Origin: Parerythrobacter lacustris
GTDB taxonomy: Bacteria; Pseudomonadota; Alphaproteobacteria; Sphingomonadales; Sphingomonadaceae
Direction of reading: 5' to 3'
Assembly: GCF_024626475.1 (NCBI RefSeq)
Contig: NZ_JANKHH010000001.1
Location: 372,001 to 436,000, forward strand
Length of the DNA stretch: 64,000 nucleotides
In this document: positions 47,749-53,309 of the stretch, piece after piece
How positions within the stretch are numbered: position 1 is the first letter of the stretch
Layout: every line of letters begins with the position of its first letter
Notes under the pieces: generated by a model
Seen by the model: only the letters and a program-made list of their open reading frames with translations
Databases searched by the model: none
What the model was told of the DNA's origin: nothing
Translations under genes and position numbers: made by a program

Positions 47749-48357
47749 TCAGAATTTCGCCGCAACGCCGTTCCCGGCCACTACAGCGTCGAGTTCCTTG
47801 AGAATGGCGCCATGCGCCAGGTCGTCGTCGAGCGAGCGCCGCGGGATATCCCCTTCCTCGAGCATCGAAGTCAGCGCAGCGCGGGCGCGGCCCACGCGGC
47901 TCTTGATCGTCCCGATCGCGCAGCCGCAGATTTCGGCTGCCTCCTCGTAGGAAAAGCCACCGGCACCGACCAGGAGCAAGGCTTCGCGCCGCTCGGCCGG
48001 GAGCGTCAACAGCGCCCGGTGCATGTCCGACAGATGCAGCGGTTCTTCCTGCCCGGCCGGGGCCGTCAGGATTCGCTCGGCCACGCCCTCGTCATATTCG
48101 CCGCGGAAACGGTTGCGGCGCATGTCGGTGAGGTAGGCGTTGCGCAGGATGACAAAGGTCCATGCGCGCATGCTGGTGCCGGGTTCGAACCGGTCCTGTG
48201 CGGCCCACGCCTTGAGCATGGTCTCCTGAACCAGATCGTCCGCCATGTCGGGCCGGCCGCACAGCCCCCGCGCAAAGGCGCGCAGGTGCGGAATGACCTC
48301 GGTCAGTTCTTTCTTGAAATCGGCCTTTTCGGAGACCGTCCGTTCCGGGTGGCTCAT
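47749..48357 (-). CDS. ecfG: general stress ECF sigma factor EcfG
   Basis: EcfG directs RNA polymerase to GGAAC-N16/17-CGTT promoters during stress. The 202-residue protein has region 2 (HLRAFARGLCGRPDMADDLV, ETMLKAWAAQDRFEPGTSMR) and region 4 (LLVGAGGFSYEEAAEICGCA, KSRVGRARAAL). Adjacent nepR and nearby phyR identify the EcfG class. The ATG at 48357 shares one base with the nepR stop. It lies downstream of a perfect EcfG promoter, which implies autoregulation. Confidence 0.94.
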   Translation of the reverse strand: MSHPERTVSEKADFKKELTEVIPHLRAFARGLCGRPDMADDLVQETMLKAWAAQDRFEPGTSMRAWTFVILRNAYLTDMRRNRFRGEYDEGVAERILTAPAGQEEPLHLSDMHRALLTLPAERREALLLVGAGGFSYEEAAEICGCAIGTIKSRVGRARAALTSMLEEGDIPRRSLDDDLAHGAILKELDAVVAGNGVAAKF

Positions 48358-48548
48358 CAGCGCTTATCGTCCAGGCGCGAGAGCAGATCCTTGAAACTGT
48401 CGGGCAGTGGCTCCTCTATCACGGAATCATAGAGCTGTTGCAAGCCGCTGGCCCAGCCGGGCTTGCGCGCCGCAGGACCACGATTCTTGCCTGACCGCTC
48501 TCCGCCAGACTTTTCTACCTCTTTGTCACGCTTCATTGTGTTCGCCAT
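48357..48548 (-). CDS. nepR: anti-sigma factor NepR
   Basis: NepR binds EcfG until phosphorylated PhyR sequesters it. The 63-residue product has a basic N-terminal half and the conserved C-terminal core GLQQLYDSVIEEPLPDSFKD followed by LLSRL. Starts at 48548 (MANTMKRD) or 48536 (MKRD) are both possible; a GGAGGA site lies immediately before 48548 and 12 bases before 48536. It is cotranscribed with ecfG. Confidence 0.9.
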   Translation of the reverse strand: MANTMKRDKEVEKSGGERSGKNRGPAARKPGWASGLQQLYDSVIEEPLPDSFKDLLSRLDDKR

Positions 48549-48609
48549 TCCTCCGGCCAGCTTGGCGATTTCCATGCGGCATTTTTGAGTTTCGGTCCCG
48601 TGGGCATGG

Positions 48610-48634
48610 AACGATAGGTGCTTTGTTTTGTTCC
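48610..48634 (-). promoter_or_regulatory. EcfG promoter of nepR-ecfG, possibly bidirectional
   Basis: On the reverse strand GGAAC (48634-48630), 16 bases, CGTT (48613-48610): an exact EcfG consensus about 62 bp before nepR. The site is nearly palindromic. On the forward strand GGAAC starts at 48608 and is followed after 16 bases by TGTT (one mismatch), pointing to the sensor kinase gene. Confidence 0.88.
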
Positions 48635-48696
48635 CTATGCAACATAGCTTCATTCATTCGCCAGCGAACCCGTATCAGGCCTTAGGATAGTGACCA

Positions 48697-50364
48697 TTGG
48701 TGGCAAGGAAATATCCTGAACGCCGGACCCGGCGGCTACTGATCGAGTACCCGCGCGCGGTCCCGCTCGCCCTCTTCCTGCTGGTAGCTGCGATCACCGG
48801 GCTGAGTGTCTACGCGATCGAAACGGGCGAGAGTGAACGGGAAAGATCAGAATTGCGTGAGCGCGCAAAGGCAATTGCATCGGCCGTAGAGCGCCGGGGC
48901 AACAGCTCTGCGGCATACCTGCGCGCGGGGGCGGCTTTGTTCGGCAGTTCGGAAGATATCGAACCGCTGCTGTTCCAGAGTTTTGTTACCCAGCTCCAGC
49001 TTGACTCCGATTTCCGAGGGGCGGAAGGCATCGGGTGGGCCCGGCGGCTGCGCCTCGGCGAAATCGAGGCATTCGAAGAGCGAGTAAGCACATTCGTACC
49101 GGGCGACTTCGCAGTCTTCCCGCGTCCTCCTGCAGATCGGACGCATGTCGTTCCGATCACCTACCTCCAGCCGGACACCGAGCGCAGCCGGCGGGCGTTG
49201 GGCTTCGACATGTATTCGGAGCCGGTGCGCCGCAAGGCGATGGACGAGGCGGAGCGCAGCACGCGGCCGACTGCCACCGGCAAAATCGTGCTGATACAGG
49301 AAGGCACCGGCTCGGATCCTGGCTTCCTGATCTATATGCCGGTATTCCAGGAAGGTCGGACACCACGGCGTCTCAAGGGATTTATCTACAGCCCATTCCG
49401 CGCGCAGGAGTTTCTCTTCTCGGCGCTGGAGCTTGAGGGTCGGGGAGAAAAAGGCGTACGGCTCTATGACGGGATCATCTCTCCCGATCGGCTGCTGGCC
49501 GAGGTGCCGCCGGATGTGACGACCGGGGTGACAATGACCCAATCTGTCCGGATTGCCCAGCGCGACATGGTGCTCGAGATCGAGTCCTCGCTCGACTCGT
49601 CCCTGTCGACATTGTCGATGATCACGCTCCTTTTCGGTTTGCTGGTTGCAACCTTGCTTATGGTGGTTGCCCGATTGCTGACGCATCAGGCGCTGGAAGA
49701 CCGGGCGGCTCTCGATTGGTTCGAGGAGCAGAATTCGATCCGCAACTCGCTCACCCGTGAATTGAATCATCGGGTCAAGAACACGCTGGCGAATGTGCTT
49801 TCGATTGTCGCTTTGACACGCCGGCGGGCAGATTCCCTTGATTCATTCGCAGAGAGCCTTGACGGGCGTATCCGCGCTCTGTCCGCGACACACGATCTGC
49901 TTACGAAATCGGAATGGGGAACAACTCCGATCCGCGATGTCGTTCAGGCCGAATTGGCACCCTATGCGAGGCACGACGACAATATCCTCGACTTGTGCGG
50001 AGACGAGGTTGCGCTGGCACCGAATGATGCCTTGTCACTCGGGCTGGCCATCCACGAACTGGCGACAAACGCGGCAAAATACGGTGCGCTCAGCGCTGTA
50101 GGGGGTAAGATCTTGCTCACCTGGTCGCTGGTCGGACCGGACAAGGTCCGCTTGGAATGGATCGAAAGTGGCGGCCCGCCCGTTGCCACGAAGGAAGAGC
50201 GCGCGCGCGGGTTCGGCACCGAGCTGATCGAGAAGATCGTGGCACACGAATTGCGCCACCCGGTCACTCTCGAATTCCGGCCTGATGGCGTACGGTGCGA
50301 GATCTTTGTCCCCGTGCGCCGACCGAGCGACTTTCGCATGCGGGTCGAGAAACGCCCCGGTTAG
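48697..50364 (+). CDS. CHASE-domain HWE/HisKA_2 sensor histidine kinase (PhyK/PhyP type)
   Basis: The 555-residue protein has an N-terminal membrane helix (about 19-41) and a periplasmic CHASE domain (FVTQLQLDSDFRGAEGIGWA, FDMYSEPVRRKAMDEA). A second helix (about 305-330) leads to an HWE-type kinase with ELNHRVKNTLANVLSIVALT (phospho-acceptor H358), N-box LAIHELATNAAKYGAL and ARGFGTELI. Its position beside ecfG-nepR and phyR suggests it phosphorylates or dephosphorylates PhyR. TTG 48697 or the GTG at 48700 starts the frame. Confidence 0.88.
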   Translation: MVARKYPERRTRRLLIEYPRAVPLALFLLVAAITGLSVYAIETGESERERSELRERAKAIASAVERRGNSSAAYLRAGAALFGSSEDIEPLLFQSFVTQLQLDSDFRGAEGIGWARRLRLGEIEAFEERVSTFVPGDFAVFPRPPADRTHVVPITYLQPDTERSRRALGFDMYSEPVRRKAMDEAERSTRPTATGKIVLIQEGTGSDPGFLIYMPVFQEGRTPRRLKGFIYSPFRAQEFLFSALELEGRGEKGVRLYDGIISPDRLLAEVPPDVTTGVTMTQSVRIAQRDMVLEIESSLDSSLSTLSMITLLFGLLVATLLMVVARLLTHQALEDRAALDWFEEQNSIRNSLTRELNHRVKNTLANVLSIVALTRRRADSLDSFAESLDGRIRALSATHDLLTKSEWGTTPIRDVVQAELAPYARHDDNILDLCGDEVALAPNDALSLGLAIHELATNAAKYGALSAVGGKILLTWSLVGPDKVRLEWIESGGPPVATKEERARGFGTELIEKIVAHELRHPVTLEFRPDGVRCEIFVPVRRPSDFRMRVEKRPG

Positions 50365-50383: not shown

Positions 50384-51175
50384 TCACGCGAATGGTCGGC
50401 TCGACCCGAAGAACAGGGCCTGGCTGATCGCGGTGCGGACTGTGCTTTCCTGAAACGGCTTGGTGACAAGATAGGTCGGTTCCGGGCGATCTCCGGTGAG
50501 CAGCCGCTCGGGATAGGCGGTGATGAAGATCACCGGCACGCTACCGAGCGACAAGATGTCGTCGACCGCATCGAGGCCCGACGAGCCATCGGCCAGCTGG
50601 ATGTCCGCCAGCACAAGACCCGGCTTGTTGTTGGCCACGACTTCGCTAGCCTGGGTGCGCGTTGCAGCGGTCCCGCAGATTTCATGCCCAAGCGAGGAAA
50701 CCAGATCCTCAAGCTGCATCGAAATGAGCGGCTCGTCTTCGATGATCAGGACGCTGGTTGTCGATTCACGGTCGATCTCATCGATCGCCTCGCGCACCAG
50801 TTCCTGGATATCCCCCTCGCCGAGGTCCATGATCTCTCCAGCCTCTGAAGCGGTGAAATCTTCCAGTGTGGTCAGCAACAAGGCCTGTCGGTTGAGCGGC
50901 GTCACTCGCCTCAAGCGGTCTTGCGCGGCCACTTCGTGCTGGCCGAGCTCCTCATGTTTGGGAGCATCCTGATAGGCGCTCGCCCAGATCTTGTTGAAGG
51001 CCCGATACAACGGAACGCGTCCGTCGGCGAGCGAAGCCTTGAGCTCCTCGTCGGACAATGCCGCTTCAAGCGTGGCACGGACGAAGCTGTCGCCGCTGGC
51101 TTGCGAACCGGTCAGCGCGCGCGCGTAACGCCGCAAACAGGGTAGGTTGGCGGCGACTTGGTTCCCGAGCGACAT
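50384..51175 (-). CDS. phyR: general stress response regulator PhyR
   Basis: PhyR is an anti-anti-sigma factor: when phosphorylated it binds NepR and frees EcfG. The 263-residue protein has an N-terminal sigma-like domain (LPCLRRYARALTGSQASGDS, LLLTTLEDFTASEAGEIMDL) and a C-terminal receiver with VLIIEDEPLIS, phospho-acceptor D191 in VLADIQLADG, and TAYPERLLTGDRPEPTYLVT then KPF. It is convergent with the kinase gene (19 bp gap). Confidence 0.95.
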   Translation of the reverse strand: MSLGNQVAANLPCLRRYARALTGSQASGDSFVRATLEAALSDEELKASLADGRVPLYRAFNKIWASAYQDAPKHEELGQHEVAAQDRLRRVTPLNRQALLLTTLEDFTASEAGEIMDLGEGDIQELVREAIDEIDRESTTSVLIIEDEPLISMQLEDLVSSLGHEICGTAATRTQASEVVANNKPGLVLADIQLADGSSGLDAVDDILSLGSVPVIFITAYPERLLTGDRPEPTYLVTKPFQESTVRTAISQALFFGSSRPFA

Positions 51176-51205
51176 ATGATCCCTTCATTATACATCCGCA
51201 CCCGC

Positions 51206-51230
51206 AACGTTCGTTCGTGAGGTTGGTTCC
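51206..51230 (-). promoter_or_regulatory. EcfG promoter of phyR
   Basis: On the reverse strand GGAAC (51230-51226), 16 bases, CGTT (51209-51206): an exact consensus, with the -10 element 30 bp before the phyR ATG. Confidence 0.88.
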
Positions 51231-51309
51231 AAAGCAACCACAACCGCCAGCATTCAATTTATCGCTCACACTCCCGATGGAGGCCTGAGCAAAAAATTTT
51301 CGGGCTGCT

Positions 51310-51334
51310 GGAACCGTCCGCCGGGCAAGGCATT
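51310..51334 (+). promoter_or_regulatory. near-consensus EcfG promoter for the candidate sRNA
   Basis: GGAAC (51310-51314), 16 bases, CATT (51331-51334): one mismatch to the CGTT -10 element. The predicted transcription start, about 7 bases downstream near 51341, falls at the foot of the first RNA hairpin. Confidence 0.6.
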
Positions 51335-51340
51335 TAGCTT

Positions 51341-51430
51341 ATGTCACCGCCGAGACCCCCCTCCCGTCCAAGCGGCTGGTGACACGATCCCGAAGGCCTC
51401 CCGGTCCCTATGGACCCGGAGGCCTTTTTT
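51341..51430 (+). ncRNA. candidate stress-induced small RNA, GsrN-like
   Basis: No protein gene lies in the 319 bp between phyR and the receiver gene. The forward strand encodes two strong hairpins. Hairpin 1 pairs tgtcacc-gccg (51342-51352) with cggc-ggtgaca (51373-51384, one bulged T). It has a 20-base loop with a CCCCCCTCCC run able to pair with Shine-Dalgarno sequences. Hairpin 2 (51393-51426) pairs aaggcctcc with ggaggcctt plus ggtcc with ggacc and ends in T6, a classic intrinsic terminator. Caulobacter GsrN, the EcfG-class-dependent sRNA, also uses a C-rich 5' loop. Homology is inferred from architecture only. Confidence 0.65.
51393..51430 (+). terminator. strong intrinsic terminator of the candidate sRNA
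   Basis: Fourteen paired bases (aaggcctcc/ggaggcctt and ggtcc/ggacc, separated by one C-C mismatch) and a 4-base loop are followed by six T. No forward-strand protein gene ends nearby, which is why an RNA gene is proposed upstream. Confidence 0.85.
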
Positions 51431-51494
51431 CGTTCTGGCGGTATGCCACGCTTCGTTCGGGTGGAAGTCCGTCAAATCGCCGGTCATCGCGAAG

Positions 51495-51884
51495 TCAGAC
51501 CAACCCCTTGGCAGCCGGATCCGGGAAGAGCGCATCCAGCAATGCCTGCCGGGAGACCGGTTTCTCAAGCACAGTACCGATTCGTGCAATGTCCGGCGGG
51601 ATCTCCCCGGGAACGCCGGTAGCGAAGACGATCTGTGGCGGATTGGGGCCGATCACACTGACCAGTTCCGCGATGCTCCAGCCGTCCGCGCGATCGGCCA
51701 GATGCACATCGAGCACCAGCGCATCAGGCCGCCCTTCGCGCAATTGTGCCAATGCCTCTTCGGTGGTCGCAGCGAACCTGATATCTCGAATGCCCGCGTC
51801 ATGCATGGTCTCTGCCATCGCCTGGGCGATGATCGCATCGTCCTCGACGATCAGCGCGGTGCGAATGGGTTTGCGTCGCGGCAT
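51495..51884 (-). CDS. single-domain response regulator, FAT-GUY-like
   Basis: The 129-residue protein is only a receiver domain: ALIVEDDAIIAQAMAETMHD, phospho-acceptor D59 in LVLDVHLADRADG, IVFATGVPGE and VLEKPVSRQALL. The FATG segment before beta-5 resembles FAT-GUY receivers (SdrG, MrrA) that relay phosphate in alphaproteobacterial stress signalling. An exact EcfG promoter lies upstream, supporting membership of the general stress circuit. Confidence 0.87.
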   Translation of the reverse strand: MPRRKPIRTALIVEDDAIIAQAMAETMHDAGIRDIRFAATTEEALAQLREGRPDALVLDVHLADRADGWSIAELVSVIGPNPPQIVFATGVPGEIPPDIARIGTVLEKPVSRQALLDALFPDPAAKGLV

Positions 51885-51928: not shown

Positions 51929-51953
51929 AACGGCCAATCTTCGCAGGCGTTCC
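51929..51953 (-). promoter_or_regulatory. EcfG promoter of the single-domain response regulator
   Basis: On the reverse strand GGAAC (51953-51949), 16 bases, CGTT (51932-51929): an exact consensus 44 bp before the ATG at 51884. Confidence 0.87.
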
Positions 51954-51974: not shown

Positions 51975-53129
51975 CTAGAGAGACTTCGAATAGATCGCAT
52001 AGCGTCGGTTGACCGAGCTGTTGATTGCGTCGGCTATTGCAATCATCCCCTGGTTGTCGTCGAGAATCCAGCCAATCTCGGCCCGCTTCGTATTCAATTT
52101 TGCAGTAGCCACCCGGCGGATGTCGCTGATCATCATGAAGGCGAGCTGGCTCGCAAGCCGGGAATTGTGCAGTTCCCGCAAGACGCCCATCAGCGGCACC
52201 CGCATGCCGGCTCCGTACGGACTGCGCAGCCAGCGGAGCAGGTGGAACCAGCCGAATGGAAACAGCTTTCCGTCGATCTTGCGTAGTGCGTCGTTGATAT
52301 CGGGCAGGGTCAGCATGAAGGCGACCGGGCGTCCGTCCAACTCGGCGATCCGGTTGAGTTCGGGCCTGATGAGCGGTTTGAGCTTCTTGCCTGCATAGGC
52401 GATTTCCCTCTCCGTAAACGGCACAAACCCCCAGTTGCTCGACCAGGCATCGTTGAGGATGCGAAGCACCGTTTCGACTTCCTCTTCCCAACGGGAGAGG
52501 TCGACGGGTCGAATGGCGATACGTTCGTTGCGCTGTCCCGACGCGACGATGCGCTGGATAAGCGGAGGAAATTCAGGCGTGACGTCGAGATCATAGGTCA
52601 ACAGCGTCTTGGCCAAGGCATAGCCCTGCGCTTCGATCCATCCCTGATACCTGGCCGGATGATGACCCATCATGATCATCGGTGCATGATCGTGGCCCTC
52701 CACCAACAGGCCCGGCTCCTCCCAGATCGACATGGAAATCGGGCCGAGCACGCGCGTCATCCCCTGTTCGCGCAGCCAAGCCTCGGCCCGCGCCAGCAAC
52801 GCAGCACCAATGTCCGCATCCTCTGCATCGAAATAGCCGAACATTCCCGTGCCCGGACCCATGCCCTGCTCGGGCGGCAGACGCAGCGCGAGCTCGTCGA
52901 TATGCGCCGAAATGCGCCCGGCCGGTTTGCCGCCGCGATAGGCAATGAACAGCTGGACCTGGGCATGCTCGAAGAACGGGTTCTTGTTCGGATCGATCAG
53001 TTCGAGCAGCTCTCCGCGAAGCTGGGGTACGCTGTGCGGGGTTCTCGCCGCAAAGTCGCGTCCTAGATCGACGAATGCGCCGCGGCCCGGCTTGTCGTTT
53101 ACGGGCGCAATGACTATCTCGTCGGAACT
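51975..53129 (-). CDS. GNAT-fold protein, candidate bacterial ceramide synthase
   Basis: The 384-residue protein has a GNAT-like core: LFIAYRGGKPAGRISAHIDE, FGYFDAEDADIGAALLARAE, LGPISMSIWEEPGLLVEGHD, and a second half with FTEREIAYAGKKLKPLI and LDGRPVAFMLTLPDIN. The family is often mislabelled dATP pyrophosphohydrolase. As I recall, it includes the Caulobacter acyltransferase that N-acylates the sphingoid base. Sphingomonads make sphingolipids, and a fatty acid desaturase lies divergently next door, so that role is attractive but unproven. GTG 53129 has an AGGACGAG site. The in-frame TTG at 53189 looks like part of a TTGACA -35 box. Confidence 0.6.
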   Translation of the reverse strand, partial: SSDEIVIAPVNDKPGRGAFVDLGRDFAARTPHSVPQLRGELLELIDPNKNPFFEHAQVQLFIAYRGGKPAGRISAHIDELALRLPPEQGMGPGTGMFGYFDAEDADIGAALLARAEAWLREQGMTRVLGPISMSIWEEPGLLVEGHDHAPMIMMGHHPARYQGWIEAQGYALAKTLLTYDLDVTPEFPPLIQRIVASGQRNERIAIRPVDLSRWEEEVETVLRILNDAWSSNWGFVPFTEREIAYAGKKLKPLIRPELNRIAELDGRPVAFMLTLPDINDALRKIDGKLFPFGWFHLLRWLRSPYGAGMRVPLMGVLRELHNSRLASQLAFMMISDIRRVATAKLNTKRAEIGWILDDNQGMIAIADAINSSVNRRYAIYSKSL

Positions 53130-53309
53130 CACTCGTCTCGTCCTGTTCAGCCTGGGTTCGCCCTGTGAGTGATTAAGCGCCGCTGTCAAGCGAGCGCGTC
53201 AGCCGGGCCGAATGCGCAAGCGAGTCGATTACTCTCGCCGGCATGACTTGTTTGTCTTGTGCGCCGCTTGTGCAGTAAGGTGCCTTCGGAGAATTTCGGA
53301 AAACCGCAA

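Follow-up and report, generated by a model that had tools for sequence, protein, structure and literature searches.

The Small-RNA Gene and Its Locus

Between phyR and the gene for a single-domain receiver, on the forward strand of the window—by which we mean the whole 64-kb stretch of DNA analysed—there lies a unit (51310–51430) that, as judged by its conservation in sequence, is a real gene for a small RNA (sRNA), maintained almost unchanged in far more than a hundred related species. We think it probable that this unit encodes a free-standing RNA of ∼90 nt, which would be controlled by EcfG and would act in trans within the general stress response (GSR) through the pairing of its loop with G-rich ribosome-binding sites or leaders. 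The features that we observed are the gene itself, the pattern of its promoter, a covarying structure, single-copy synteny with phyR, and a loop and linker that are both near-invariant. The preliminary description of this DNA had proposed an unannotated sRNA inside the GSR locus, which proposal is upheld by the hairpins and promoter conserved in related genomes. In Rfam, no family matched the sRNA above threshold.

According to Pfam, a complete GSR locus is present in the window (Table 1). The pattern GGAAC-N16-CRTT occurs there at four sites, versus 0.82 expected, and these are located at nepR, phyR, the sRNA, and the receiver gene. The receiver contains a FATG motif, and we take it to resemble GSR receivers such as SdrG. 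Its gene ends 65 bp from the sRNA and is convergent with it, and no forward-strand gene follows the sRNA, in keeping with the earlier claim that no protein gene on that strand explains the terminator.

Table 1. Features of the sRNA unit and of the surrounding GSR locus (positions within the window).
Feature	Position	Strand	Evidence or remark
ecfG, general stress sigma factor	47749–48357	−	Pfam Sigma70_r2/r4_2 with PhyR_sigma2 similarity; adjoins nepR
nepR, anti-sigma factor	48357–48653	−	Pfam NepR
EcfG site of nepR	48610–48634		Pattern scan
CHASE-HWE kinase	48697–50364	+	Pfam
phyR, anti-anti-sigma response regulator	50384–51175	−	Pfam PhyR_sigma2/PhyR_sigma-like/Response_reg
EcfG site of phyR, GGAAC-N16-CGTT	51206–51230	−	Pattern scan
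A-tract/T-tract AAAAAATTTT	51291–51300	+	Sequence; just 5' of the promoter
EcfG-type −35 box GGAAC	51310–51314	+	Pattern scan; homologue comparison
−10 box CATT	51331–51334	+	16-nt spacer from −35; EcfG consensus is CGTT
Small RNA, ∼90 nt, predicted start to T-run end	51341–51430	+	Fold, covariance model R1, conservation
5' hairpin, 11 pairs	51342–51384	+	Stem 51342–51352 with 51373–51384, one bulged U
C-rich 20-nt loop AGACCCCCCUCCCGUCCAAG	51353–51372	+	Proposed mRNA-pairing loop
Unpaired linker CGAUCCC, 7 nt	51385–51391	+	Nearly invariant; main group and divergent L085–L092
Intrinsic terminator with T6	51392–51430	+	Hairpin 51392–51427, T6 51425–51430
Gene for the single-domain receiver, converging on the sRNA	51495–51884	−	Pfam Response_reg
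EcfG site of receiver gene, perfect GGAAC-N16-CGTT	51929–51953	−	Pattern scan

Promoter and Fold

The promoter of the sRNA had been characterized as near-consensus, which term is appropriate because the −10 box reads CATT instead of CGTT. Among 159 distinct homologues the −35 box GGAAC is present in 158 and the spacer measures 16 nt in 153, while the −10 box reads CATT in 133 of them and CGTT in a further 12, the two together accounting for 145. This departure of the −10 box from the consensus in most species is one point that counts against our preferred explanation. In Sphingopyxis granuli, CATT occurs naturally as an EcfG −10 box; it is transcribed by EcfG in vitro—more weakly than CGTT—and is among the commonest nonconsensus EcfG boxes, as for example in mltA2 (PMC7083833). 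Since CATT is thus transcribed by EcfG, though less than CGTT, the sRNA promoter would most plausibly be an EcfG promoter of moderate strength. Upstream of the −35 box the sole conserved stretch is an A/T-rich tract located at the same place in the homologues, and the A-tract/T-tract of this genome is possibly UP-element-like. The predicted start of the RNA, at about 51341, was placed from the promoter.

The 11-bp hairpin with its 20-base C-rich loop was recovered as described earlier, and so was the intrinsic terminator with T6, whose hairpin comprises 15 pairs in our fold instead of the 14 claimed (−28.1 kcal/mol, z −7.0). The unit as a whole folds at −45.7 kcal/mol (z = −6.1), and none of 200 shuffles folded equally well. 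A simple terminator scan of the window did not list this terminator, presumably because of the internal mismatches of the stem. In the alignment A3, which includes the divergent branch dealt with below, 97.4% of the cells are paired and two-sided changes are present in 18 of the 25 pairs, a count biased towards structure in that the alignment was fitted to the model; when the structure was slid by 1–3 columns as a control, at most 8 pairs had such changes. By helix, the two-sided changes affect 12 of the 14 terminator pairs and 6 of the 11 pairs of the 5' hairpin, the latter covariation coming mainly from the divergent branch.

Distribution and Conservation

The hairpins and the promoter, whose absence from related genomes the preliminary description had named as a refutation of its proposal, are present in those genomes and extremely conserved. 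Of 150 genomes belonging to the same family, 70 were matched by blastn with the 141-nt region as query, nearly all with E-values of 1e-11 to 1e-30; and at E ≤ 0.01 the covariance model R1 matched 158 genomes among the 398 examined in the order, ∼145 of them at 57–112 bits. Elsewhere in the class, outside the family, R1 found nothing above 27 bits, which is noise level. A few weak R1 matches away from the locus (L326, L327, L328, and L329) were discarded, as they look like coding sequence, 3'UTR, or chance terminators.

When 84,980 named genomes were scanned for the exact pattern, at least 119 stretches were obtained. The matches listed include Erythrobacter—with E. rubeus, E. sanguineus, E. 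fulvus, E. cryptus, and E. vulgaris as carriers of the sRNA—Qipengyuania, Altererythrobacter, Croceicoccus, Tsuneonella, Pontixanthobacter, and relatives, as well as Porphyrobacter, Citromicrobium, and Novosphingobium, the rest of those listed being metagenome-assembled genomes labelled only Sphingomonadales, Alphaproteobacteria, or Proteobacteria. At every locus examined the sRNA adjoins phyR, the flanks being formed by phyR, the receiver gene and/or the next gene (the homologue of 51975–53189). The loop pattern was present in 97 genomes and in single copy in 96 of these, whereas the reversed pattern, used as a control, occurred in none of 299 genomes. A search for the loop pattern in viral contigs found none.

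The mean pairwise identity among 131 dereplicated homologues was 0.979 in the 5' module and 0.684 in the terminator hairpin, 1.00 in the −35 box and 0.895 in the −10 box, versus 0.375 in the upstream flank, 0.41 for the spacer of the promoter, and 0.26 in the downstream flank. These sequences had been gathered by means of a regular expression over ∼23 core letters, at which letters the identity is inflated; the second arm of the hairpin, the linker, and the promoter boxes lie outside that selection and are conserved about equally. The loop is nearly invariant except for the length of its C-run.

One genome, G082, contains the normal copy plus a second RNA-like unit (L330:2475-2542, reverse strand, contig 35) that is unique to it among the 97 genomes. 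This unit combines the identical C-rich loop with a stem unrelated to the normal one and with a 3' hairpin of its own, and it is preceded by GGAAC-N16-CGTA; its contig, of 8 kb, is rich in transposase-like and glycosyltransferase-like frames, and a search of plasmids with the second-copy RNA gave no match. Because that copy keeps the exact loop on a new stem, it suggests that the loop would be the working element of the sRNA.

Eight genomes of a Novosphingobium-like genus, which is probably Novosphingobium itself (g29, L085–L092), possess, in the corresponding position next to phyR, a similarly organized RNA, with R1 scores of 30–40 bits (E 5e-5 to 2e-7 over 198 kb). There the stem has been rewritten with changes on both sides of the pairs—GUUGCC/GGCAAC in L086 versus GUCACC/GGUGAC—and the loop is C-rich, yet of a different sequence (CUCCCCCCACCCC in L087), while the linker CGAUCCC is kept. 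In seven of the eight the upstream EcfG site has CGTT. In several of these genomes the 3' hairpin is followed by CAAAG-UUUC without a clean U-run, so that termination may differ from that of the main group.

Relationship to Known Small RNAs

Certain alphaproteobacterial sRNAs, those of the suhB/alpha-r14 and CcsR type, have C-rich loops complementary to Shine–Dalgarno sequences. The present sRNA has no Rfam match to such families and differs from them in promoter and locus. Its best Rfam match was CC1840 (RF01521), a Caulobacter sRNA that likewise has a long stem, a C-rich loop, and a terminator, along with a tempting CCCGUCC...AAGCGGC; at 25.9 bits versus a gathering score of 50, the similarity is not above chance and we rejected this candidate. 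The CC1840 family exceeds its cut-off only in Caulobacter, and a search throughout the present genome (G000) gave no match at E ≤ 0.1.

The sRNA arm of the GSR is already known in Caulobacteraceae and Rhizobiales: GsrN was described in the former, with predicted relatives in the latter, and where tested its C-rich loop acts by pairing with G-tracts, for example that of katG (PMC5869019). In Rhizobium etli, ReC64 is an 88-nt EcfG1-dependent noncoding RNA located downstream of phyR-tcrY (PMC3892343). Our sRNA is like ReC64 in its position within the ecfG-phyR region, its length, and its EcfG-type promoter motif, which in ReC64 is the EcfG1 consensus, and unlike it in belonging to a different taxonomic order and in not lying downstream of phyR-tcrY, this comparison being one of descriptions.

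The designation GsrN-like, as used in the preliminary description, holds as an analogy and is not supported as a statement of family membership. The sRNA and GsrN (ccna_R0081) have in common an EcfG/sigmaT-class promoter motif, an exposed C-rich 5' loop, an intrinsic terminator, a comparable size (∼90 nt as against ∼100 nt), and a GSR-linked locus, which in the instance of GsrN is found in relatives. The sRNA differs in having a simple 20-nt hairpin loop plus the CGAUCCC linker, in the taxa where it occurs, and in that the katG G-tract is not conserved: no conserved G-tract was found near the katG start in 15 relatives, nor any in this genome, the start sites being approximate. The Rfam model CC3552 (RF01529), which from its locus, promoter, and loop is very likely GsrN under an older name, gave no match at E ≤ 5 in 51200–51500 (301 nt); and in the reverse test R1 had no match at E ≤ 1 in L117–L142, including L120 and L121. 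Those two loci, of the family f59, are matched by CC3552 at 101 and 66 bits, respectively, and contain C7-loop RNAs with EcfG-type promoters beside phyR. Because the covariance tests fail in both directions and the katG leaders are without a G-tract, we do not class the sRNA as a member of the GsrN family, although by analogy it would work like GsrN.

That the sRNA might even so descend, as a true orthologue of GsrN, from an RNA already present at the GSR locus in the ancestor of the Alphaproteobacteria, its sequence having drifted beyond recognition, we regard as unlikely. The two are alike in locus and promoter class, in size, and in having a 5' C-rich loop and a terminator, and the CC3552-type RNAs of L120/L121 also lie beside phyR; these, however, stand on the other side of phyR and have a different inner architecture, in addition to which neither model recognizes the RNAs of the other and the katG site is not conserved. 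Moreover, the units at L109, L123, and L128/L133 look unrelated, a circumstance equally compatible with convergent recruitment. L109 (genus g69, of the same family) has an EcfG site, GGAAC-N16-CGTT, on the other strand ∼790 bp from the start of phyR, together with a terminator and a C8-looped hairpin, CCGGUCU/AGACCGG, which unit is possibly another, unrelated GSR sRNA. An EcfG-like site, a C-rich hairpin, and a terminator are likewise found beside phyR in L128 and L133 (family f11) and in L123; L128 and L133 are alike, which suggests that further families of GSR-linked sRNAs may exist.

Taken with these cases, the RNA analysed here suggests that an EcfG-driven sRNA with a C-rich loop is a general part of the GSR, either repeatedly recruited or fast-diverging. 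Erythrobacter litoralis, which belongs to this lineage, had been reported to be without an apparent gsrN-like gene (PMC5869019). That gap is filled by the RNA analysed here, which in Erythrobacteraceae and Novosphingobium occupies the same locus across the lineage and hardly varies. The loop sequence was not found in the literature searched, the scope of which excluded most subscription papers.

Putative Function and Targets

In the mechanism that we propose, stress would free EcfG from NepR, and RNA polymerase with EcfG would transcribe the sRNA from GGAAC-N16-CATT as far as the sRNA's own terminator. A rigid 5' stem would then display the 20-nt C-rich loop, AGACCCCCC(C)UCCCGUCCAAG, for pairing with mRNAs at G-rich stretches, mainly in ribosome-binding sites and leaders. 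Through this pairing, in which Hfq would probably assist, a set of mRNAs would be altered in translation or stability. In this scheme the dependence on EcfG, the ends of the transcript, the mechanism of pairing, and the role of Hfq are what we infer from the observed features. GsrN is characterized by stabilization through Hfq and by processing to a stable 5' isoform, and in the present genome an Hfq gene is present (G000:C7:217103-217528); in this genus and its relatives Hfq is a single open frame with two tandem Hfq domains. The invariance of the loop should in addition make it a ready means of identifying targets in sphingomonads amenable to genetic work.

Alternatively, the C-rich loop and the linker could act as a decoy or sponge, binding a protein or another RNA instead of the ribosome-binding sites of mRNAs. 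The near-invariance across the lineage of the whole 20-nt loop together with CGAUCCC exceeds what a short seed needs, and long complementary sites are not enriched: the 12-nt complement of the loop, with at most one mismatch, occurred in the genus at 27, 9, and 9 sites versus 33, 26, and 28 for the reversed control. This result, like the katG leaders with no conserved G-tract, counts against the pairing mechanism. GsrN, however, pairs through its C-rich loop with G-tracts where tested (PMC5869019), and the variable length of the C-run—with cores of 23, 24, 25, and 26 nt in 84, 66, 7, and 2 homologues, respectively—suits pairing better than it does a fixed protein site, so that we deem a decoy quite improbable.

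It is far less probable that the stretch is nothing but a terminator with a chance promoter upstream, serving the convergent receiver gene or read-through; for although the receiver gene ends only 65 bp away and the terminator could serve both strands, the U-run is on the forward strand, several loci (L013 and L031) have no detected receiver gene between the sRNA and the next gene, and the best-conserved parts are the loop of the 5' hairpin, the linker, and the promoter boxes and not the terminator. That the unit is an mRNA encoding a tiny protein, either leaderless or with a short leader, is scarcely credible, since the ATG that coincides in this genome with the predicted start at 51341 and opens a 13-codon frame is not kept in the homologues, base pairs and not codons are conserved, and the C-run indels of the loop shift any frame, which excludes coding.

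Under the pairing mechanism, one candidate target within the locus itself is phyR, whose unusual ribosome-binding site GAAGGG, just 5' of the ATG, is complementary to the loop. GAAGGG is present in 61 of 99 phyR leaders at loci with the sRNA, versus none of 44 elsewhere (0/17 in sphingomonads without the sRNA, 0/19 in other Alphaproteobacteria, and 0/8 in the divergent branch); within the same loci it precedes 27 of 37 phyR-like starts as against 10 of 350 other starts. For nepR, the kinase, and the receiver, the starts were too often misplaced for their leaders to be used. Since the species are related, the signal amounts to a single lineage-level correlation and not to many. A negative feedback in which the loop would pair with GAAGGG(G), limit PhyR, and so reset the response is accordingly put forward as a tentative and doubtful possibility; were it true, the phyR ribosome-binding site of this lineage and the loop of the RNA would have coevolved. 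The duplexes calculated between loop and phyR leader reached −15.7 and −21.2 kcal/mol in two examples, and −14.1 kcal/mol in this genome.
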